A DNA stretch of 51,105 nt, taken from assembly GCA_001767435.1 (NCBI GenBank), contig MEKT01000119.1, forward strand, positions 1 through 51,105, given 5' to 3'. Both the position numbers and the translations under genes were made by a program. Below, one piece after another: positions 29,869-43,940 of this stretch. Below the pieces are notes generated by a model that saw nothing but the letters and a program-made list of their open reading frames with translations, was not told the origin of the DNA and did not search any database. This DNA is from Acidobacteria bacterium RIFCSPLOWO2_02_FULL_65_29. Its GTDB lineage: Bacteria > Acidobacteriota > Vicinamibacteria > Vicinamibacterales > CAVVIG01. The first letter of the stretch is position 1. Every line of letters begins with the position of its first letter.

Positions 29869-32800
29869 ATGACGAAGTCATCGTACGTTGTCGCCTGCTT
29901 TGCCTTCGTGCAGCTTTCACTGGCTGTCCTCGTGGGTCAGCCTGCCAACGCACAGCCGCCCACATACACGTTTCACACGATCGCGGGGCAGCCCCCGGGG
30001 TCGCCCTTCTCATTTGCCTCCGGCATTACTGTGGACGGCGCGGGCACGATCTACATCTACGATTCCAGCCATTTCGTCATCCGCAAAGTCACGCCCTCCG
30101 GGCTCGTGAGCATCGTGGCGGGCTCGCCCGTTCGGGCTGGGATCCGGCCTCGCCGTCGACAGCGCGGGAAACCTGTATGTTGCGGATTCGTGGTCCGCCA
30201 CGATCCGCAAGATCACCCCGGCGGGCAGTGTGACCACGCTGGCCGGATCGCCCGGGCAGAAAGGTAGCGCGGACGGTCTCGGCAGCGAGGCACGCTTCGA
30301 TCACCCGTTCGCCCTCACTGCCGACGCGTCGGGCAATTTGTTCGTCGTCGAGGCCTCGAACCACACGATCCGCAAGATCACGCCGGGTGGGCTCGTGACA
30401 ACCCTGGCCGGGCTCGCGGGTGCGACGGGCAGCAACGATGGAGCGGGCAGTGCCGCCCGATTCAACAGCCCGCGAGGGATCGCGGTCGGTGCCGCCGGCA
30501 ACGTCTATGTGTCCGACAGTTCGAACCACACCATCAGGATGATTACGCCGGCGGGCGAAGTGACCACGCTGGCCGGGGTCGCGGGCGTCCGGGGCACGGT
30601 GGATGCAACCAGCAGCGCGGCGCGGTTCAGCTACCCGGGTCCGCTCAGCGCGGGTGCAGGTGGCAATCTATACGTGGCTGAAAGCTTTGCCGGTGAGACT
30701 TGTCGCATCCGGACAATCACGCCCGGAGGAACCGTCACGACGCTGGCGGGCCAGGTCGGCGTGTGCGGCTCGGTCGACGGAACCGGGTCGTCCGCACGTC
30801 TGTCGGGAGTCACGGGCCTCGCTGTCAGCCCCACCGGCACCGCGTATTTCCTTGAGGTGGGCTACGTCACGGCTTTGCGTGCGATGGCTGCCGACACCAC
30901 CGTGACGACGATGTTTCCCGCAAGCGGCCCGTCTTACCCCAGCCAGAACGACGGCGCGGGAGCAGCGGCTCAGTTCCTGTCCCCAGGCGCCGCCGCGTTT
31001 CACCTCGGTGAGGTCTGGGTGACCGACGGCATGAAGACTCGCCGGGTCACCCCGGGCGGCGTCGTACGGTCGGACCAGCAGGTGGACGCAGTGCGCGGCG
31101 TGGCGTTCGATTCAGCCGGAACTATGTACCTGACCATCGGCTGTGGCGTCCAGAAAGGGCCGTCGACGCTGGCAGGGGCGTTTCCGGCTGTGTTACCCGA
31201 GCAGTGCGGGTCGATCGACGGCGCGGGCACCGCTGCGCGCTTCAGCCGAGCGGTTGGCCTTGCCGTGAACAATGCCGGCACCGTGTACGTGGCCGACAAT
31301 GGCAACTCGACGATCAGAGCGATCACCCCGGCCGGCGACGTTACGACGCTCGCCGGCCTCGCCGGCAACCCAGGCAGCAGCGACGGCGCGGGCAGCACGG
31401 CGCGTTTCAGCGTTCCGGCAGGCCTGGTCGTCGACGGCTCGGGCGACGTGTATGTCGCCGACAGCGGCAACCACACGATCCGGCGTGTGACGCCGGCTGG
31501 TGTCGTGACGACATTTGCTGGCGTTGCGGCAACGCCCGGCAGCAGCGACGGGACAGGCAGCGCCGCACGATTCAGCGAGCCGTACGGGCTGACGATCGAC
31601 GGCAGCGGGAACCTCTTCGTCAGCGAGCTCGGCAACTCCACGATCCGGCGAATCACGCCGGCAGGAGAGGTCACGACCATCGGGGGCCTGGCGCCGTTCG
31701 TGGGTCGAGCGGACGGTGTGGGGGCCGCGGCGCGGTTCTCGTCACCGAAGGGCATCGCCGCAGACGCCGCCGGCACGCTGTACGTCGTGGATAGCGGCAA
31801 CTACGCGGTTCGGCAGGGCTTCCTCGGGTCGGCCATAGCGCCCACGATCACCACGCAGCCAGCGAGCCAGTCTGTTGCCGCAGGGCAGACCGTGCAGTTT
31901 ACCGTCGCCGCCAGCGGCACGCCGCAACCGGGGTATCGCTGGCAGGTGCAGGGGTTTGTGAGCGGCGAATCGTGGCTGGACCTCCCGAACTTTGCGCCAT
32001 TCAGCGGTGTCTCGACGCCGACGCTGACGCTGGCGCCGGCATCCCCCCAGGAGACGGGCTTCAGATTCCGCTGCGTGATCACGAACCTGGCTGGAACCGC
32101 GACGAGCGAGGCGGCGACGCTCACGGTCTCATCGCTGACCCTGATTCCGTTCGTGCTGACATTCGGTGCGACGAAGGCCGGTGCCTTCGGGGATCTGATC
32201 ACGGTCACGCCGGCGCAGACGGTGTCGGTGAGCTACAACGCGCCGTCTGTTCCCGTCTGGACCGCCACTGTTGATCAGCCCTGGCTGCAGGTCTTCAACG
32301 GGTCGGGTACGGGGGCCGGCCACTTCGTCGTCCGCGTGATCAATCCGGCCAACGTCATTGGCTCGAGCACGTCGCTGAGCGGGTCGGTGACAGTGACGGC
32401 CGTGAATGTCGGCCTGACCGCGACGATTGCGATTGCTCTGCGGGTGCAGTTGGCGGGGACGAGCTTGGCGCCGGTCGGCGTGTTCGACACGCCCGTCAAC
32501 AACGCCACCATTCAGGGATCGATCGCGGTGACGGGGTGGGCCCTGGACGATGTGGGCGTGGAGCGCGTGGAGATCTGGCGCGACCGCGCCGCGGGTGAAA
32601 CGACGCCGGTGTACACGGGCTCCGGTCCGGGGGACGGCAAGATCTTCATCGCGAACGCGCTGTTCGTCAGCGGCGCGCGCCCGGATGTGGAACGTCTGTT
32701 TCGCAACGAGCCTCAGGCCAACCGCGCCGGCTGGGGATACCTGATGTTGACGTGGGGGCTGTGGAACCTGGGGAACGGACCATTCACGCTGTATGCGTTT

Positions 32801-34036
32801 GCGTACGACGCAAACGGTCACTACACGACGGTGGGCACCAAGACCGTGACGGCGAACAATGCTGGCGCGATCAAACCCTTCGGGGCACTGGATACGCCGA
32901 CGTACGGGCAGACCGTCACGGGCGCGTTCTGGAACTACGGGTGGGCGCTGACGCCGAACCCGAACGCGGTGGACACTCGCACGTGCGCGATCACGAACGG
33001 GAACGTGTTCATGGCCGTCGATTCCGGGGCGCTGACGCCGGTGATTTACGGCGATCTGCGCACGGACATTGCGGCGTCGTTCCACGGGTTCAGCAATGGG
33101 ACGAATGCCGGCGGCGCGTGGCTCCTCGACAGCACGGCGCTTAGCGACGGCGTGCACCAGATCGGCTGGTACGTCGTCGACAGCTGCGGCCGGGCGGACG
33201 GCATCGGCAGTCGGTTCTTCACGGTGCTGAACGGGAGCAGTCTGACGGCGGCGGATGCCGGGACCAGACGACGTGGCCTCGCGATCCAGGAGGGCGGGCG
33301 GACGCAGTCGGACCCGGCCGTGCAGACGGACGGCGCTCATGGGATCCAGCGTGTCGCGGGCGATGCGCCTGCGACGACGGTGACGGCGCGGACCACGGGC
33401 GGCGAGTGGCGGGCCGTCCCGCCGAGCGCCGCAGGGGTGCACGTGGTGGCGGTTGGGCAGAGCGAGCGTGTGGAAGTGCACCTCCCGCCGGCCGACGGTG
33501 TCACGTACACGGGCGCGCAGATCGTGAATGGCGAGACGCGCGCGCTGCCGCTTGGATCGTCGCTCGACGCGGAGCAGGGGATCTTCTACTGGCAGCCGGC
33601 GGCGGGGTTCCTCGGCGGTTTCGATCTCGCGTTCACGCGGACCGATGGAGGGCGGGTCCGCGTGCGGGTCGTCGTCGGGCCGTCGATGCGGCTGGCGATC
33701 GACACGCCGGCGGACGGCGTCGTGTCGCAACAAACGGTCGTCGTGGCGGGCTGGGCGATCGATCTCGCCTCGACCGACGGATCCGGCATCGACACGGTAC
33801 ACGTCTGGGCGTATCCGACGGCAGGCGGCGATCCCGTCTTTCTCGGCGTGGCCAGCATCGGCGACGCGCGTCCCGACGTCGCCGCGATCTACGGGCAACA
33901 GTTCGAGCGGTCATCTTTCAGTCTGGTTGCGCCGCCGCTCGCCCTCGGAACGTACGATATCGTCGTCTATCCACACCGCGCCGCGACCAACGCGTTCGAC
34001 GGTGCTCAGGTTGTCCGCGTGACCGTCGTGCCGTAG
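29869..34036 (+). pseudogene. Giant secreted NHL-repeat/Ig-like protein with one early frameshift
   Basis: ATG 29869 with a GGAGGG site opens a signal peptide (ending PANAQ) and the first NHL blades. Near 30130 the frame shifts by one; the rest continues to 34036 with at least eight NHL units (NHTIRKITPGGLVTTLAGLA, GSSDGTGSAARFSEPYGL). An Ig-like domain follows (TTQPASQSVAAGQTVQFTV), then a BACON-like region, and a C-terminal module with GSIAVTGWALDDVGVERVEI and VVAGWAIDLAS blocks shared with the next gene. Likely surface-exposed. A single-base sequencing error would restore a gene of about 1390 codons. Confidence 0.85.
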
Positions 34037-37000: not shown

Positions 37001-38324
37001 TGTGACCTGGTTGCGCAGCGGCGCCGGGCCAGACGTCTGGCGGGTGACATTCGACGCGTCGACCGATGGCGTCACGTACACGTCGCTCGGGAGCGGCACG
37101 CGCGTCGCCAACGGGTGGCAGTTGGCTGGCCAGAGCCTTGCCACCAATCAAAACTTGTTCATCCGCGCGCGCGGATACTACGTGACGACGGGCTGGACTA
37201 CCGGGTCCGGCTCAATCGACGAATCGATCCGAAACGTGTTCGTCTCATGCCCGACGATTGCGCCGACGTCTTTGGTCGCCGGCACCGCAGGCCTCGCATA
37301 CTCCACGACGTTCACGGCGACGGGCGCCATCGGCGTCGTCAGCTTCGGGGAAACGGGCACGCTGCCCGCTGGGGTCACCTTCAGCGGTGGAGTCCTCTCG
37401 GGCATGCCGACACAGACTGGGACATTTCCTCTCACGGTGACCGCGACCGACACATCCAGCGGATGCGCCGCATCGCAGAACGTCACGCTGACCATCAACT
37501 GCCCCACGATCACACTGAGCACGACAAGCTTCGCCGACGGGACGGCTGGCGGCGCGTACGCGAACACGGCGATCACGCAGATCGGCGGTGTGGGGACGAC
37601 GACGTTCGCAGTGACGAGCGGGGCGCTGCCGAGCGGGATGACGCTGTCGAGCGCCGGCGTGGTGAGCGGCACGCCAACTGCGACCGGGACATTCACCTTT
37701 ACGGTCACTGCGGCCGATGCCAACGGGTGCACCGGATCGCGCGCTTACACGCTCACGATAGGGTGCCCGACGATCACGCCAGTCCGACGACGATTGCAAA
37801 CGGCGCGATGGGTACGGCGTACTCGGCGGCGATCACGCAGACCGGCGGCGTGGGGACCGCGACCTTCGCGGTGACGAGCGGGTCGCTGCCGGCTGGTGTG
37901 ACGCTCTCGACGGCGGGCGCGCTCACGGGCACCCCCACGGCCTCCGGCACGTTCAACTTTACGGTGACCACCACGGATGCGAACGGCTGCACGGGGTCAC
38001 GCAGCTACAGCCTGATCGTTGGAACGCCGACGCTGGCGCTCACGCCCTCGACCGTGAATTTCAGCGTGGTCAACAGCGCGGGGACGCTGACGGTCGCAAC
38101 CCCGCCGCAGACGCTCACCCTCACGCAGACCGGAGGCTCTGTGGCGTGGACGGCGGCGGCCGATCACTCGTGGATCACGCTTAGCCCGACGTCCGGATCA
38201 GGGTCGGGGACGCTAACCATGTCGATCAATAACACAGGTGGCGTGCTGCCGGCGTCCGGATCGTTGACGGGCACGATCACCGTGACGCCGGCTGCGGGCG
38301 CCGATGCGCCGGCACTGTGGGACC

Positions 38325-38382
38325 CGGCTTCAGCCGGAGTCGGCGCTCCACCGTGGGATCCGGCTTCAGCCGGATTCATTGC
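38325..38382. repeat. Palindromic GGCTTCAGCCGG repeat pair inside the delta-60 gene
   Basis: Two copies of CCCGGCTTCAGCCGGA and TCCGGCTTCAGCCGGA are separated by about 18 bases and are read in frame as WDPASAG, twice. The paralogous upstream gene lacks this stretch at the corresponding site. Confidence 0.75.
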
Positions 38383-39249
38383 TTCAACGGCGTGGCCCGC
38401 CAACGCGCCGATGACGACCGTGAATCTGACGATCCGCGCGCCCACGCAGCCGCCGGAGGCGCCGTTTGGCGTGTTCGATACGCCGGCCGCAAACACGACG
38501 ATCCAAGGGTCGATTGCGGTCACGGGCTGGGCCCTCGATGACGTCGCGATCGATCGCGTCGAGATTTGGCGGGACTTGGTTACGGGCGAAACGACGGTGC
38601 CGTTCAACGCGCCGGGGCATCCGGGGCACGGCAAAGTGTTCATCGCGAAACCGCTATTCGTGGCAGGCTCTCGGCCCGACGTCGAGGCAGCGTACCAGAA
38701 TCATCCGTTTGCGAATCGCGCCGGGTGGGGATATCTCCTGCTGACGTGGGGCTTGTGGGATCAAGGAAACGGGTCGGTCACATTGTATGCGTTCGCGTTT
38801 GACCAGGAGGGGAACAATACGACGCTGGGGACGAAGACGCTGACATCGGACAACGCGAACGCGACCAAGCCGTTCGGGGCGCTGGACGTGCCGGCGTATG
38901 GGGAGACGAAGGCGGGGCTGTTCTTCAACTTCGGGTGGGCGCTGACGCCGAATCCGAACGCGGTCGACAGTCGCACGTGCACGATCACGAACGGGAATGT
39001 GTTTGCGGGGATCGACTCGGGGCCGCTGACGACGGTGGACTATGGAGACAACCGCACGGACATCGCGAGCGCGTTTCCGGGGTTCTCGAACGGAAGCGGC
39101 GGCGGCGGCCATTACCTGGTCGACACGATGACGCTGGCCAACGGCGTGCATCAGATCGGGTGGTACGTCGTGGACAGCTGCGACCGGGCGGACGGCATCG
39201 GCAGCCGGTTTTTCTCGGTGCTGAACGGGAGCAGCCTGACGACGGCGAC

Positions 39250-39286
39250 TGTCCGTAGTGTCCGGCTTCAGCCGGATTTCGAGGGC
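39250..39286. repeat. Palindromic GTCCGGCTTCAGCCGGAT repeat read in frame
   Basis: One copy, translated as RSVRLQPD within the delta-60 gene. The corresponding place in the paralogous gene (about 33245) has unrelated sequence, so this is best read as an insertion. Confidence 0.75.
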
Positions 39287-39867
39287 AGCGACGTAGTTCG
39301 CGTGCGCCGGCTGAACGGCGACTGGACCGAAGTCTCGCCCTCCGCGACGGGCGCACACATCATCGCGATCGATCAGAGCGAGCGGATCGAAGTCCAGCTG
39401 CCAGTCGCCGACGGCCCAACGTACACGGGCGCGCAGATCCTGAATGGTGAATCACGCGCGCTGCCGCTCGGCTCGTCGCTCGACGCGGAGCAGGGAATCT
39501 TTTACTGGCAGCCTGCCGCGGGATTCCTCGGGAGTTTCGAGCTGGAATTCTCGAACCTCTTGAACCCCTCGATCCAAGTGCGCGTCGTCGTCGGCCCGTC
39601 AGTAAGGTTGGCGATCGACACGCCGGCCGGGGGTATTGTTGCCGAGCAGCTGTTTGTTGTTGCGGGCTGGGCGATCGATTTCGCATCGACCGACGGATCG
39701 GGCATCGACACCGTGCATGTGTGGGCGTATCCCACGGCCGGCGGCGACCCGATCTTCCTCGGTGTCGCGGACATCGGGGATCCGCGTCCAGACGTCGCCG
39801 CTGGTCGCGCCTTCTTGCGAGCAGCAGCGAGGCTGATCACCGGATACGTACCGAGCGTCCAGCGGCG

Positions 39868-39995
39868 TCTAGGCCCGGAACATCGCCGTCTGGACGCGTG
39901 ACGCGCCGACCCGATTCCGCCCTCAGCGCAACGACGGTGCGATCGGTGAGCCGCTTCGGGTTGCGGCCCTTGGCGGCTGCGCCGGACGTGTCCAT
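39868..39995 (-). pseudogene. N-terminal fragment of a tyrosine integrase
   Basis: ATG 39995 with CAGGAGAG upstream opens NPKRLTDRTVVALRAESGRR and VTRPDGDVPGLD, the arm-binding N-terminal pattern of phage-type integrases. Homology ends near 39868, where it joins the truncated delta-60 gene. Orientation matches the integrase tail at 28598-28735, so they might be the two ends of one split gene. Confidence 0.65.
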
Positions 39996-40216
39996 GCACT
40001 CTCCTGCGGCGCTCGGCCGCTCGGTGCGTGCGATCTCCCAAAGAAGCTCCCCACGCCGGGGGTAGCACCGGGGTCACAACTATAGATGGCCTCGCGTGAA
40101 ACCGCATGACACACGATAGTGGGGTCACATGGCACTTTTGCGCCTGAAAACAGCGATTTCGAGGGAACGTGTTACCCGGTGAAACTGGACGAAACTCGGC
40201 GGCTATTGAATGGCAT

Positions 40217-41788
40217 TCATGAGGTCACCGGTTCGATCCCGGTCTGGTCCACCACTCTTTCATTTCCTGTCTGAATTTCCCGCAAGTAGCTGAAGGCCTG
40301 TGCGGTTACGCGGGTTCCAACAAAGCCTTTTCCGTCGAACGCGATTCCACCTGGAAAGAACAACAGTTGGAACCGCTGGCGCTGTTCGAGCGATGCCTGC
40401 ACCCAGAGGTCGGCGGCGCGCGGCAGAACGCGTTCTGCGAACGCCACGATGCCCTCTACGTCGAGTTCATCGAGCTGGCCGGAGTGACGGTCTATCCGAG
40501 CGAGCGTCAGCTCCTCGCGCAGTTTCTCGGCGTGACGGTCGTACGTCTCGATGTCGATCGAGCGCTCGAAAAGGAACGCCTCGTCCAGACGGTCCAGCTT
40601 CTGTTGGATGGCCTTCGCTGCTCGCTCAGCGCTTTCGATCTCCTCGCGCACGGCCGCCTTCCGCGTCTTCCAGATCCGCAGCACGGATTCCTTCAGTAGT
40701 CGCATGTAGCCTGGCGTCGGCTGCAGCAGGGCGAGTTCGTCTGCGAACAGCCCTTCGAGCATGGCTTTCGAGACGTTCACCGCACGACAACCAGGGCGGC
40801 AGTGGTAGTACGCGTAGTACTCGCTGCGTCCTTTCGACCAACTGCCGGTCAGGCCACGTCCGCAGGATTCGCAACGAACGAAGCCGCGCAGCGGGAAATC
40901 GGGATGCGCTCGTTGCCTCGGCGCCGTGCTTGGCACTCGCCCGGACAAGATCGCCTGAACGCGATAGAACAGCTCGTCGGAGATCAGCGGCTCGAAGTCG
41001 CCACGCTTGCCGCGAACGCCGTACTCGGGCACGTCCACGATGCCGGCGTACAACTGGTTGCGCAGCAGCACGCCGATCGCCTGTGACGTGAGCAGCTTCC
41101 CGCGGCGATTGGTGAGGCCCCAGGTCCTGGCCCGCTTCAGTAGTTGTTCTTTCGTGTATCGGCCTGTCGCGTAATCCTCGAATGCGCGTCGTACAAGCGG
41201 TCCGCGTTCCGTATCGTGCATCAAGCTCCTGCCCATCGATCGCGGCGCATTCAGATAACCGATTGGCGCAAGGAATACCCATCGACCGAGTTCGAGCGCG
41301 GCCTTCATGCCGGCGCGTGTTCGATCGGAGCGCACGTCGTTGTCGAACTGCGCGAACGCTGCGAGTACGCCTTCCATCAACTTGCCCGTGGACGTGTCAT
41401 CGATTGGCTCAGTGGCTGAACGAAGCGAAATGCCAAGCGATTGCAGGTGCGAGCGCAACGCGAAGTGGTCGTACTTGTCACGCGCAAAGCGCGTCAGGTT
41501 GAAGACGACCACGAAGTGCACACGGCCTTTGTTCAAGCGGCAGTACGTGAGCAGGTTCTGGAGCTGGCTGCGATCCGTGGTCTTGGCGCTCTCGCCTTCC
41601 TCGTGGAAGCGTTCGAGGACTTCGTAGCCTTGGCGGCGGCAGTACTCCTCGCACGCCCGAAGCTGTGTCGGCAGGCTGAGATTCTCGGTCTGCTCCTTCG
41701 TGCTGACGCGAACATAGACCACCGCGCCGACCATGATCGGCAGCGTAGATCCATTCGCCGAGTCGGGCAAGCTGCGTTTTCGAGGCAT
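40217..41788 (-). CDS. Large serine recombinase
   Basis: A 523-residue site-specific recombinase. The catalytic Ser29 lies in VVYVRVSTKEQ, the resolvase domain spans about 20-170, the recombinase domain about 190-290, and a zinc ribbon has C306, C309, C330 and C334 (VRCESCGRG, HCRPGC). A coiled-coil region (about 385-440) follows, as in phage-type large serine recombinases. The last residues (VVDQTGIEPVTS) are encoded by the reverse complement of a tRNA 3' end, so the reading frame runs into the attachment region. It looks intact, unlike the copy at 23.3-23.8 kb. Confidence 0.93.
   Translation of the reverse strand: MPRKRSLPDSANGSTLPIMVGAVVYVRVSTKEQTENLSLPTQLRACEEYCRRQGYEVLERFHEEGESAKTTDRSQLQNLLTYCRLNKGRVHFVVVFNLTRFARDKYDHFALRSHLQSLGISLRSATEPIDDTSTGKLMEGVLAAFAQFDNDVRSDRTRAGMKAALELGRWVFLAPIGYLNAPRSMGRSLMHDTERGPLVRRAFEDYATGRYTKEQLLKRARTWGLTNRRGKLLTSQAIGVLLRNQLYAGIVDVPEYGVRGKRGDFEPLISDELFYRVQAILSGRVPSTAPRQRAHPDFPLRGFVRCESCGRGLTGSWSKGRSEYYAYYHCRPGCRAVNVSKAMLEGLFADELALLQPTPGYMRLLKESVLRIWKTRKAAVREEIESAERAAKAIQQKLDRLDEAFLFERSIDIETYDRHAEKLREELTLARIDRHSGQLDELDVEGIVAFAERVLPRAADLWVQASLEQRQRFQLLFFPGGIAFDGKGFVGTRVTAQAFSYLREIQTGNERVVDQTGIEPVTS
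40221..40254 (+). other. 3' fragment of a tRNA gene (probable attachment-site remnant)
   Basis: GAGGTC is followed by a T-arm with stem ACCGG/CCGGT around TTCGATC, an acceptor strand CTGGTCC and ACCA. The variable-loop and T-arm form resembles tRNA-Ala or tRNA-Ile. No D-arm, anticodon arm or 5' acceptor GGACCAG lies upstream, so it is not a whole gene. It directly abuts the recombinase gene. Confidence 0.8.
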
Positions 41789-41792
41789 AGTG

Positions 41793-41978
41793 CTACTCGG
41801 AAGTGCGGCACTGCTCCTGGTACATCTCGACCACGATGCACGCCATCGTGTCTGCGTGGCGACGGATGTCCTCGATGTCCTGATCGGTCATCGATTCCGC
41901 GTCCTCGCCGAGCAGCTCTCGACAGCGCGCGATCGAGATCGGTTCCGGCCTCGGATCTGGTTGTTCGACGTACTCCAT
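41793..41978 (-). CDS. Small acidic protein paired with the serine recombinase
   Basis: A 61-residue protein from ATG 41978 with AGGGG 6 bases upstream. It reads ISIARCRELLGEDAESMTDQ, then DIEDIRRHADTMACIVVEMY, acidic and helical. Similar small proteins with a LG-x-E-x3-L-x-D/E-x2-I pattern occur upstream of recombinases in mobile elements; the role is unknown. It ends 4 bases before the recombinase start, so it is the first gene of that operon. Confidence 0.7.
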   Translation of the reverse strand: MEYVEQPDPRPEPISIARCRELLGEDAESMTDQDIEDIRRHADTMACIVVEMYQEQCRTSE

Positions 41979-42034
41979 GGGCAACCCCTGCGAAGTCATT
42001 GCAGACGTTCGTGATGGGGTGGAGTGCGCTCGAA

Positions 42035-42059
42035 GCGCGCCGACATGGTGTCGGCGCGC
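42035..42059. repeat. Perfect hairpin, 11-bp arms
   Basis: Arms GCGCGCCGACA and TGTCGGCGCGC with a TGG loop, about 55 bases upstream of the small recombinase-partner gene. It could be an operator or recombinase site. Confidence 0.85.
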
Positions 42060-42314
42060 CGAGACGATGAGCGTGGATGTGGCGTGACGCCGACACCGAA
42101 GCGCGAGACTTGAAGTCGAGCACGCTGATCGCAACGGGATGTGCGCGATCAATCGACAGGTTGTTGAAGGGGCTGAGAGCTTTGCTCTGAGAGCGTTGGC
42201 TACAGCGCTCCGCGTCTGGCAGGACTGCGGAGGGGTACGCGATGGCACCGACGAGATCTTCACGATACGACAGCGGACGCGCCGGGTCAACGCACAAATG
42301 AGGACGAGCTTCGT

Positions 42315-42440
42315 CGGCCATCACATAAGTGCGACCTCGAGCTGCGCGGAGGCGCCGTCAAGGCCGTAGCCCGCAGGGTCGAGCGCAGCGAGAGCCTTGA
42401 CGACGCCGAGCACAGCTCGATCCTGGTCATGTGATGGCCG
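42315..42440. repeat. 126-nt near-palindrome
   Basis: The ends CGGCCATCACAT and ATGTGATGGCCG pair perfectly over 12 bases. The inner arms pair imperfectly through CGAGCTG and CGTCAAGG against CAGCTCG and CCTTGACG, leaving a loop of about 25 bases. A further ATGTTC/GAACAT hairpin follows at 42441-42456. Confidence 0.8.
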
Positions 42441-42576
42441 ATGTTCTGGCGAACATAGTCGTGAAAAAGTACGGCGCGTTTCGCGAGGGATCTGCGGCGC
42501 GTTCGCACGTGACGACACGCGTACATTCGGCGCGCAGATCAACGCGGGAACCCGCGAGCATTCCGGCACGGACATC

Positions 42577-42648
42577 GGGGCGTGAGCAACCCTCCGGGCC
42601 GGGGCCGGGGTCGGCATCCTCTCCAAACCGGGGGGTTGCTCACGCCCC
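42577..42648. repeat. Hairpin C, 21-bp arms
   Basis: Left arm starts GGGGCGTGAGCAACCC; the right arm ends GGGTTGCTCACGCCCC; five more positions pair, one as a T-G wobble. Followed 30 bases later by a smaller hairpin (42679-42703) with arms GCGGACGGC and GCCGTCCGC and loop ACAAAAC. Confidence 0.85.
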
Positions 42649-43004
42649 CACTGACAGCCAGCCTGCGAGCGCCGAGCAGCGGACGGCACAAAACGCCGTC
42701 CGCCCGAACGCGCCAGGCATTCACTGGAAGTGGTTGGCGCCGTGACGGATCCGACTGTGGGACTTCGTTACGGCTGGCACTGGTATTCCGCGCAGTGGTC
42801 GTCATTCGGGCTCCGGTTTTCGACGCCAACCACCGCGCTCTGTCGCGGCTCCCCTCGCGGCGTCAGCCGGTTCAATCCAGATGCTGGGGCCACTGTGAAA
42901 AGACAGCCGCAAAGTTCATCAAGTTCTTGCTCAGAAACGAGCGGATTCTTCCCCGCTTCCAGCGGACGGACCGCCGCTGACACGGGGCGCCAACAGTCTT
43001 TCAG

Positions 43005-43081
43005 CGTGGCGTGAGCGACCACGTCCGTGGCCGCGAGCTTGGCAGGTCAAGCGGTCATTTCGAGTGGTCGCTCACGCCACG
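43005..43081. repeat. Hairpin D, 18-bp perfect arms
   Basis: Arms CGTGGCGTGAGCGACCAC and GTGGTCGCTCACGCCACG; outside them GCCAACAG (42989) and CTGTTGGC (43087) extend the symmetry. It is followed 41 bases later by a smaller hairpin (43123-43143) with arms GGGCGGC and GCCGCCC and loop ACAGTGC, the counterpart of the hairpin after C. Confidence 0.85.
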
Positions 43082-43250
43082 GATGGCTGTTGGCGACCGC
43101 TCCGGCAGTGGCGCCACCAAGCGGGCGGCACAGTGCGCCGCCCGAGGACGACGGCTGCAACCTGCTCGACGTCTTGCAGTTGTCCCGCGGGCTCGCCGCG
43201 TGTCAGTCGTGTTCGTCAACCAGAACGAGATCCTCGAAGGAGACCAATCC

Positions 43251-43299
43251 AGGGGGAACACCTCGCGCTGAGGGGGTGTTCCCCCCCGGTGTTCCCCCT
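43251..43299. repeat. Hairpin E, 12-bp arms with an extra half-site
   Basis: AGGGGGAACACC pairs with GGTGTTCCCCCT; a second GGTGTTCCCCC at 43275 can compete for the same left arm. A further CTTGAAGCG/CGCTCAAG pairing lies at 43300-43331. Confidence 0.75.
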
Positions 43300-43413
43300 C
43301 TTGAAGCGCTGATTGCGCACCGGTCGCTCAAGATGTGCCCCTGCTATGGCAAACGAATCTGACAACGCCTTTGAGGTGTGACCGGGTGGTACGATCGGCC
43401 CGCCAGAGGCTCG

Positions 43414-43671
43414 ATGCCGACATTCCCGGAGTGGTGGAATTGGGACCTTTCGTTCACCGGCCACGCCGAATTGCGCATGGAGCAACGAGGCGTGACCGAG
43501 GTGGAGGTTCGCGCTATGCTGGAGCGAGCTGCGCGTTTCGAGCCGAACGTCGTCGAGGGCAGATTCATGATCCACGTTCGCCACCTGGAGAGCTCGTGGA
43601 TCGTGATCGTCGAGCCGGATGCCGACGCCAAACTATTGGTCGTCGTGACGGTTTACGGGGTGTCCGAATGA
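43414..43671 (+). CDS. DUF4258-type protein, possible toxin of a two-gene module
   Basis: An 85-residue protein from ATG 43414 with AGAGG 5 bases upstream. HAELRMEQRGVTEVEVRAML followed by GRFMIHVRHLESSWIVIVEP fits the DUF4258 pattern (His, R-M-x-x-R-G, then a beta sheet), related by fold to small RNase-like toxins. It overlaps the next gene by 4 bases. Toxin function is inference from pair layout. Confidence 0.65.
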   Translation: MPTFPEWWNWDLSFTGHAELRMEQRGVTEVEVRAMLERAARFEPNVVEGRFMIHVRHLESSWIVIVEPDADAKLLVVVTVYGVSE

Positions 43672-43940
43672 CAGAACGGTCGCTACAAGTCACTTACCGG
43701 AAGGGCCGGGCGTTCGCCGCGTATTTGCATTTGTCCCACGCGACAGGTGAGAAGAGCGCGAAGACGGTGGCGTCTCAGGACGGCCTGCTCATCGTCGACT
43801 ACAGTGCTACCGGGCGGCCCGTCGGCGTAGAGATCACGGCTCCGCAGGCCGTCCCCCTTGAGCGACTGAATCAGTTGTTGGCGGACCTCGGAGAGACACC
43901 GTTGGCTGAGCAAGATTACCGGCCTCTCAGAGCAGCATAG
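43668..43940 (+). CDS. DUF2283-like protein, possible antitoxin of the pair
   Basis: A 90-residue protein starting at the ATGA overlap (43668). YRKGRAFAAYLHLS followed by GLLIVDYSATGRPVGVEI is the DUF2283 signature, in which the Asp-Tyr and G-x-x-V-G-x-E blocks are conserved. DUF2283 genes are often found next to DUF4258-type genes. The fused frame upstream of this start has no homology. Confidence 0.65.
   Translation: MTERSLQVTYRKGRAFAAYLHLSHATGEKSAKTVASQDGLLIVDYSATGRPVGVEITAPQAVPLERLNQLLADLGETPLAEQDYRPLRAA

Follow-up and report, generated by a model that had tools for sequence, protein, structure and literature searches.

A recurrent paired-hairpin site on tRNA islands of Acidobacteriota, a probable origin of transfer of an ICE family

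The DNA analyzed here, a stretch of 51,105 nucleotides (contig MEKT01000119.1) from Acidobacteria bacterium RIFCSPLOWO2_02_FULL_65_29 and referred to in full as the window, carries the left end of a genomic island, marked by a partial tRNA gene and followed by a recombinase operon, a gap of about 1.4 kb and a pair of overlapping cargo genes beginning at 43378. The gap houses two hairpin units (sites 1 and 2), which are the subject of this report (Table 1).

Table 1. Features of the island within the window
Feature	Position	Strand	Description
tRNA-Ala(GGC) 3' half, without 5' half	40207..40254	+	attachment-site copy, island left end
Large serine recombinase (island integrase)	40217..41788	-	Pfam Resolvase, Recombinase, Zn_ribbon_recom
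Small conserved protein directly upstream of recombinase gene	41793..41990	-	no Pfam match
Nested hairpin	42309..42441	+	GGCCATCACAT...ATGTGATGGCC, inner GTCGAGCGCAGCGAGAGC; on integrase side of unit
Site 1, long hairpin	42577..42648	+	arms 42577-42597/42628-42648, 21 nt, 95% complementary; GGGGCGTGAGCAACC...
Site 1, small hairpin	42679..42703	+	GCGGACGGC-acaaaac-GCCGTCCGC; 7-nt loop ACAAAAC
Site 1, conserved block at terminal-repeat position	42818..42873	+	CACCGCG ... TGTCGCGG ... CTCGCGGCG; read as repeats by eye
Site 2, long hairpin	43005..43081	+	arms 43005-43022/43064-43081, 18 nt, 100% complementary; CGTGGCGTGAGCGACCAC...
Site 2, small hairpin	43122..43144	+	CGGGCGGC-acagtgc-GCCGCCCG; 7-nt loop ACAGTGC
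Site 2, terminal repeats	43251..43299	+	left arm AGGGGGAACACC once, right arms GTGTTCCCCC twice, 13 nt apart
DUF4258 cargo gene	43378..43671	+	Pfam PF14076; homologues in islands L067, L077, L143
DUF2283-like cargo gene	43668..43940	+	PF10049 below cut-off (E 0.004); overlaps DUF4258 gene

The tRNA fragment is 100% identical to the 3' part of a tRNA on another contig of the same genome (C127, 10569-10644), and the last codons of the recombinase gene traverse it in antisense. The same boundary lies beside a full tRNA in five loci (L025, L066, L067, L075 and L077), and homologues of the recombinase occur at this tRNA in the last four of them. The small protein encoded upstream of the recombinase, also present in L066, L067 and L068, is 44% identical over 55 residues to an 84-residue protein that precedes the recombinase of a full conjugative element (L163, 69-323), and is possibly a directionality factor or regulator. 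The cargo genes recur as a pair in L067, L077 (where their order with respect to the unit is changed) and L143, while L025 has the DUF2283-like gene only; homologues of the latter gene were recorded in L025, L067 and L077. That the pair is toxin-antitoxin-like is a guess. Queries for VirD4, VirB8, VirB10, TrbL, TrbB, RHH and the two protein families described below (TERQ and DLDL) gave no match in the window, and a search of it for the island's right end, in the form of a second tRNA repeat allowing up to 3 mismatches in 25, failed to locate one. Contig C127 (locus L025), which holds the only full-length tRNA-Ala(GGC) match found in this genome, carries a site and island left-end sequence and no recombinase match; it and the contig of the window (C119) may both come from an array of tandem islands at a single tRNA. 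A large gene for a repeat-type protein at 37115-39901 appears by eye, against its paralogue at 30230-34036, to be frameshifted near the end, at its C-terminus.

Each unit consists of a long hairpin followed, after 30 nt in unit 1 and 40 nt in unit 2, by a small one. The two lie on the same strand some 430 bp apart and are unlike in long stem and in the repeats considered below. All four hairpins were located in the sequence where the initial annotation had placed them, and the sequence bears out its observations that the small stem exchanges an A-T pair for G-C between the units and that the long stems differ while staying paired (AACCC versus GACCA). Folded as DNA, the units reach z-scores of -4.95 (unit 1) and -6.47 (unit 2), with none of 200 dinucleotide shuffles as good in either case; the opposite strand gives -4.75 and -5.75. 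Further inverted repeats in the gap, overlooked in the initial annotation, lie at 42314-42441 (with a nested one inside), 42730-42833, 42985-43098 and 43251-43299. The nested hairpin is kept in L066, L067 and L068, and BLAST also shows it in L077, L079 and L083.

A third feature, often found about 250 bp past the unit start, comprises one inverted and two direct repeats: a left arm is followed by two right arms, at distances from it of roughly 25 and 37 nt, in words that differ between loci but match one another (GGGGGAAC, GGGGGAAG, GGACAACC, CTAGACAA and others). A strict test on 8-mer repeats detected this double-arm pattern in 36 of 64 units, against 108 of 1280 mononucleotide shuffles (about 5 in 64 expected); the left arm lies at +242 to +257 in 25 of the passing units and elsewhere in 11, several of which are chance-like. 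The arms of site 2 lie at +249 (left), +275 and +288 (right) from the unit start, and closely similar repeats occur in the conjugative elements L071 and L072; site 1 shows no double-arm pattern in the strict test. Homology was also tried as a guide to the limits of the site, and was dropped because the ends of the matches differ (that between the window and L066 stops at 43299, that with L067 continues to 43942) and because L025 and L066 are alike past the repeats as well.

The near-copy on C127 is 84% identical over 710 alignment columns, beginning inside unit 1 and running to the end of the terminal repeats, and two further genomes hold homologous stretches, L028 of 42203-43299 (73%) and L029 of 42203-43330 (75%). 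The hairpins are the most conserved blocks, the sequence between them being more variable. A covariance model of the long and small hairpins (R1) was built from 16 units. These had been chosen by a regular expression that demands pairing, so that the pairing test on them leans towards structure; even so selected, they did not exceed shuffles in one of five measures (further pair types; 435 of 500 shuffles as high). Units 1 and 2, both in the training set, score 103 and 92 bits, and the C127 unit, which was outside it, scores 84 bits. Searches with R1 (E up to 0.001) showed that the unit, first noticed as two copies in the window, is present in 56 of the 162 genomes searched from the same order. 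In an even draw from the phylum under stricter filters, 20 of 396 genomes were positive, all 20 from that order, which is probably Vicinamibacteria judging by the names of relatives. The segment 42560-43310 has no DNA match among 72,556 plasmid records or 50,697 phage records (E up to 0.001), and literature searches showed no paper on this system.

Variation among the 65 units retained confirms that the hairpins are maintained: both stems vary on both sides yet remain paired, the core of the long stem being near constant and its outer part varying with pairing kept. Switching between Watson-Crick pairs is evident in the long stem at columns 5/149 (GC in 36 units, TA in 17, AT in 8) and 14/141 (GC in 44, AT in 17). 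These figures come from model-fitted hits, after 62 of 127 rows had been dropped, nearly all of them opposite-strand shadows of the same hairpins and including a partial second hit in L025 (8468-8590). The loop of the small hairpin has the consensus A-C-A-R-A-R-C among the 57 of 65 units that fit the search pattern, which itself imposed the 7-nt length and which 8 units did not fit; position 2 is C in only 34 of the 57 and the last position is C in 56. The view originally taken of the locus, that of a structure which is conserved, shows compensatory changes and sits on a mobile element adjoining a recombinase, is supported by these results; with copies in many genomes, the refuting condition set out in the initial annotation does not hold.

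The genomic setting of the unit was surveyed in 60 loci, a non-random sample favoring genomes with many copies and made up of the window, L025, 19 of 20 pieces around DNA matches and 39 of 40 around model hits; L074, which matched only the terminal block of site 1, and L159, which overlaps L081, were left out. Genes were called by a simple script, with uncertain starts. Apart from the window, 30 of the remaining 59 loci contain a tRNA or tmRNA gene in the piece examined; the one nearest the unit precedes it in the same orientation in 26 of these loci (by 2.1-3.9 kb in 21 of the 26) and is placed otherwise in 4. The genes represented include tRNAs for Ala, Lys, Glu, Leu, Arg, Gln, Asp, Gly and Met as well as tmRNA. 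Ten candidate proteins encoded between tRNA and unit comprised seven tyrosine integrases (Phage_integrase), one serine recombinase, one Fic protein and one without a match, and a match to the serine recombinase of the window lies within 3.5 kb upstream of 19 of the 65 units, two of these matches (L127, L136) being only 24-30% identical. Since it is seen with both tyrosine and serine integrases, the unit is a component of tRNA islands in general and not of one recombinase.

Two undescribed winged-helix families accompany many copies of the unit. TERQ, named here from its motif FTERQARFL and about 325-414 residues long in most copies, is encoded downstream of 36 of the 65 units on the opposite strand. 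The spacing is nearly fixed: in 31 of these 36 cases its conserved part ends 301-355 bp from where the unit starts (median 311.5). DLDL, of about 290-370 residues, is encoded near 30 units. On the other side of 10 units, in six genomes, lies a gene for a VirD4-type coupling protein, and all ten of these units have TERQ; a gene for a 105-residue RHH-like protein (read as RHH by eye, without a Pfam match) lies near 11 of the 65. The order in full elements is the RHH-like gene, the VirD4-type gene, the site and the TERQ/DLDL pair, within a cluster of conjugation genes. One such element, in genome G079 (L162, L071 and L163), encodes TrbC, CagX/VirB9, TrbI, TrbL, VirB8, VirD4, TrbB/VirB11-like and RepB-primase-like proteins, and ends with the small protein and a serine recombinase at tRNA-Ala(GGC), the same integrase type and target as in the window island; its unit lies about 10 kb from the recombinase, and a search of 60 kb around the element, allowing up to 4 mismatches in 25, revealed no second tRNA repeat. 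Across the 162 genomes, 46 have both unit and TERQ, 10 the unit only, 17 TERQ only and 89 neither (Fisher p 1e-16, uncorrected for kinship). The genome of the window itself has a TERQ-DLDL pair at L210 8810-10641 (G000:C120) next to which no unit is recognizable; contig C12 holds a TERQ fragment as well.

Neither family could be assigned by sequence. Profiles of both gave only weak rows against PDB sequences (best E 0.04 for DLDL and 0.027 for TERQ), and tblastn with one TERQ and one DLDL protein against plasmid records gave no match. Structures were predicted with pLDDT 90.5 for TERQ and 78.2 for DLDL; Foldseek returned no match to these models with E up to 0.001 (best 0.073 and 0.0056 for the two), and VIA-align aligned their N-terminal parts with MarR/RosR-like winged helices (top Z 8.2 and 8.6). 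Beyond this N-terminal winged helix there is no trusted fold match: TERQ residues 99-314 were aligned with the restriction endonuclease SdaI (Z 7.4, rmsd 3.7, 121 residues aligned), a value within the tool's noise range, and the absence of HUH relaxases from the VIA-align rows excludes nothing. We take both families to resemble Replic_Relax (PF13814) in the winged-helix N-terminus and, for DLDL, in a C-terminal PD...E motif read by eye; they differ in that a scan of four TERQ and two DLDL proteins, run to an E-value of 1, did not list PF13814. Known relaxase families were absent from the ORFs of the G079 element submitted to Pfam, a set that omitted a few short ORFs and the largest one. Among eight genomes searched, PF03432 matched only on G079:C9, a contig without a listed unit, and PF08751 only at G014:C18:1387, some 129 kb from a unit. 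The coupling-protein domain PF10412 matched in six of the eight, G050 and the genome of the window being the two without a match; no resident helper with a PF10412 coupling protein is therefore visible in the latter assembly (239 contigs, 97% complete).

We interpret each site as acting in cis in the processing of DNA, and most likely as the origin of transfer (oriT) used by a family of ICEs in one order of Acidobacteriota; to this reading we assign a probability of about 0.62. Like known origins of transfer, the site adjoins genes for coupling or relaxosome proteins, as seen in the units next to VirD4-type and RHH-like genes and in the G079 element, other units being without these genes nearby. 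An oriT would further be expected to have inverted repeats near a conserved nic sequence; what is seen here is inverted repeats and a conserved 7-nt loop. Under the proposed mechanism, proteins of a helper element would recognize the site, probably through its variable repeats, the hairpins would present the strand to be cut, and nicking would take place on single-stranded DNA, perhaps within the small hairpin or next to it. A coupling protein would then bring the DNA to the T4SS. The initial annotation had offered a single-strand recombination site among its suggestions; this came closest, in that the single-strand component is retained here, with conjugation put in place of recombination.

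The window island, in turn, is best explained as a small hitchhiking island that carries oriT-like sites of 'MOBless' ICEs. It has its own integrase and attachment site, the first attribute of an iOriT (an integrative mobilizable element with an oriT only), and, as the second, a transfer site like that of a conjugative element, insofar as site 2 resembles the putative oriT of L071 and L072. Equipped with these and with two sites, it would be moved by helpers, whose T4SS would export it once excised. As its sites differ in long stem and repeats, the two may serve two helper specificities.

The closest precedent for the sites in the window is the pWBG749 family of Staphylococcus. Its oriT subtypes have a common core and vary in the repeats to which an RHH factor binds, and certain plasmids bear two or three oriT mimics, mostly of different subtypes (PMC8136818, PMC4652767). 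The two systems have in common a conserved core with variable repeats, an adjoining RHH gene, carriers that lack a relaxase and multiple, differing sites; the staphylococcal carriers, however, are plasmids of Firmicutes with a putative relaxase, SmpP, whereas the present sites lie on chromosomal tRNA islands of Acidobacteriota in which no relaxase was found. The orientation of the sites also counts against the oriT reading, since staphylococcal plasmids with two oriTs are described as always having them on opposite strands (PMC4652767), in contrast to the same-strand pair in the window. Integrative elements with an oriT only are a known kind (PMC5704250, PMC11389934). Of these, islands mobilized by SXT/R391 elements, such as MGIVflInd1 (PMC5704250), likewise combine an integrase with an oriT resembling that of a conjugative element and have no relaxase of their own, although their integrase is of the tyrosine type and the helper relaxase is MobH. 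T4SS clusters without a recognized relaxase were raised as an open problem, and ICEs reported in acidobacteria, in the portion considered of a 2011 survey (Guglielmini 2011; PMC3158045), to which the present elements conform on both points; that portion names no transfer site or candidate relaxase for them.

Several further observations count against an oriT. Unit and TERQ are separable, in the 10 genomes with the unit alone, in the 17 with TERQ alone and beside the TERQ-DLDL pair of the window's own genome; for 14 of the 65 units, both TERQ and the serine recombinase family are missing from the neighborhood; and the own genome lacks a PF10412 match. The failure to find known relaxase families near the sites, or a significant fold match for TERQ and DLDL, weighs in the same direction. 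The strongest rival, which we consider unlikely, is a replication origin (oriV or rolling-circle) of the excised elements, with TERQ and DLDL as initiators, the repeats as iterons and the hairpins as single-strand initiation sites. Direct repeats spaced about 12 nt apart beside a gene with a MarR-like winged-helix N-terminus would suit such an origin, as would the RepB-primase-like gene of the full element and the presence of the site on islands with neither TERQ nor transfer genes nearby. Against this, integrated islands replicate with the chromosome, and transfer origins typically have the position seen here, beside VirD4-type and RHH-like genes in a T4SS cluster. The two functions are compatible within a single site.

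The suggestion, made in the initial annotation, of a structured RNA is disfavored by the kinds of pairs observed. An RNA helix is expected to show wobble intermediates, yet over all 25 pairs in the 65 units, with 1494 Watson-Crick cells, G-T is rarer than A-C (13 versus 23), the remaining 77 cells being other mismatches, many of them in the two outermost pairs of the small stem; over the 16 pairs of the long stem the counts are 1 and 6. This scarcity of wobbles favors reading the stems as a palindrome of DNA. Rfam points the same way, with no family at gathering score anywhere in the window; in E-value mode it returned 21 rows for 41950-43420, the best a microRNA family at 29.5 bits against a gathering score of 100. 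A non-coding or leader RNA controlling the transfer operon or the integrase would be in keeping with hairpins that fold well as single strands in either sense, and with the location of the unit, which in the window lies upstream of the integrase operon and in full elements stands inside a cluster of genes sharing one direction; the occurrence of the unit on islands with no transfer operon nearby, beside unrelated integrases, adds to the case against, and we hold such an RNA to be improbable.

Recombination sites, next to a recombinase operon, were likewise suggested at the outset. A binding or recombination site for the serine recombinase, such as an accessory attachment site, would agree with the adjoining operon in the window and with the recombinase matches close upstream of 19 units. 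This too is not upheld, and we now judge it very improbable: the unit also stands beside tyrosine integrases and lies far from the recombinase in the full element, and attachment is assigned to the 3' half of the tRNA (40207-40254). Least probable is some other cis site of mobile elements, for example for partition or for packaging of a phage satellite, to which a noncoding, structured sequence on islands of varied content could conform, since T4SS genes are linked to 10 units and the phage records hold no DNA match.

If the site is an oriT, the missing relaxase, or a factor accessory to it, might be sought in TERQ or DLDL. Tentatively, and with less confidence than in the oriT itself, we raise the possibility of a new class of conjugation initiation, in which a palindrome-rich oriT is served by a non-HUH relaxase (TERQ and/or DLDL) and tandem copies of two specificities are carried on tRNA islands for different helpers; such a class, if real, would explain part of the 'MOBless' T4SSs. 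The compactness and recognizability of the site in over a third of the genomes of the order, often together with two conserved candidate proteins, make the relaxase question directly testable. The site would also serve as a sequence marker by which hitchhiking islands could be recognized in a phylum of soil bacteria, and the window island would join the staphylococcal plasmids as a second case in which one element carries several oriT-like sites that differ.

When named genomes were scanned for TERQ, 25 loci were obtained, 22 of them in records named Acidobacteria, Acidobacteriota or Luteitalea. The other three homologues (L187, L193 and L205) are in MAGs labeled Chloroflexi, Gemmatimonadaceae and Cyanobacteria, one each, and reflect either binning errors or a spread of the element beyond Acidobacteriota.
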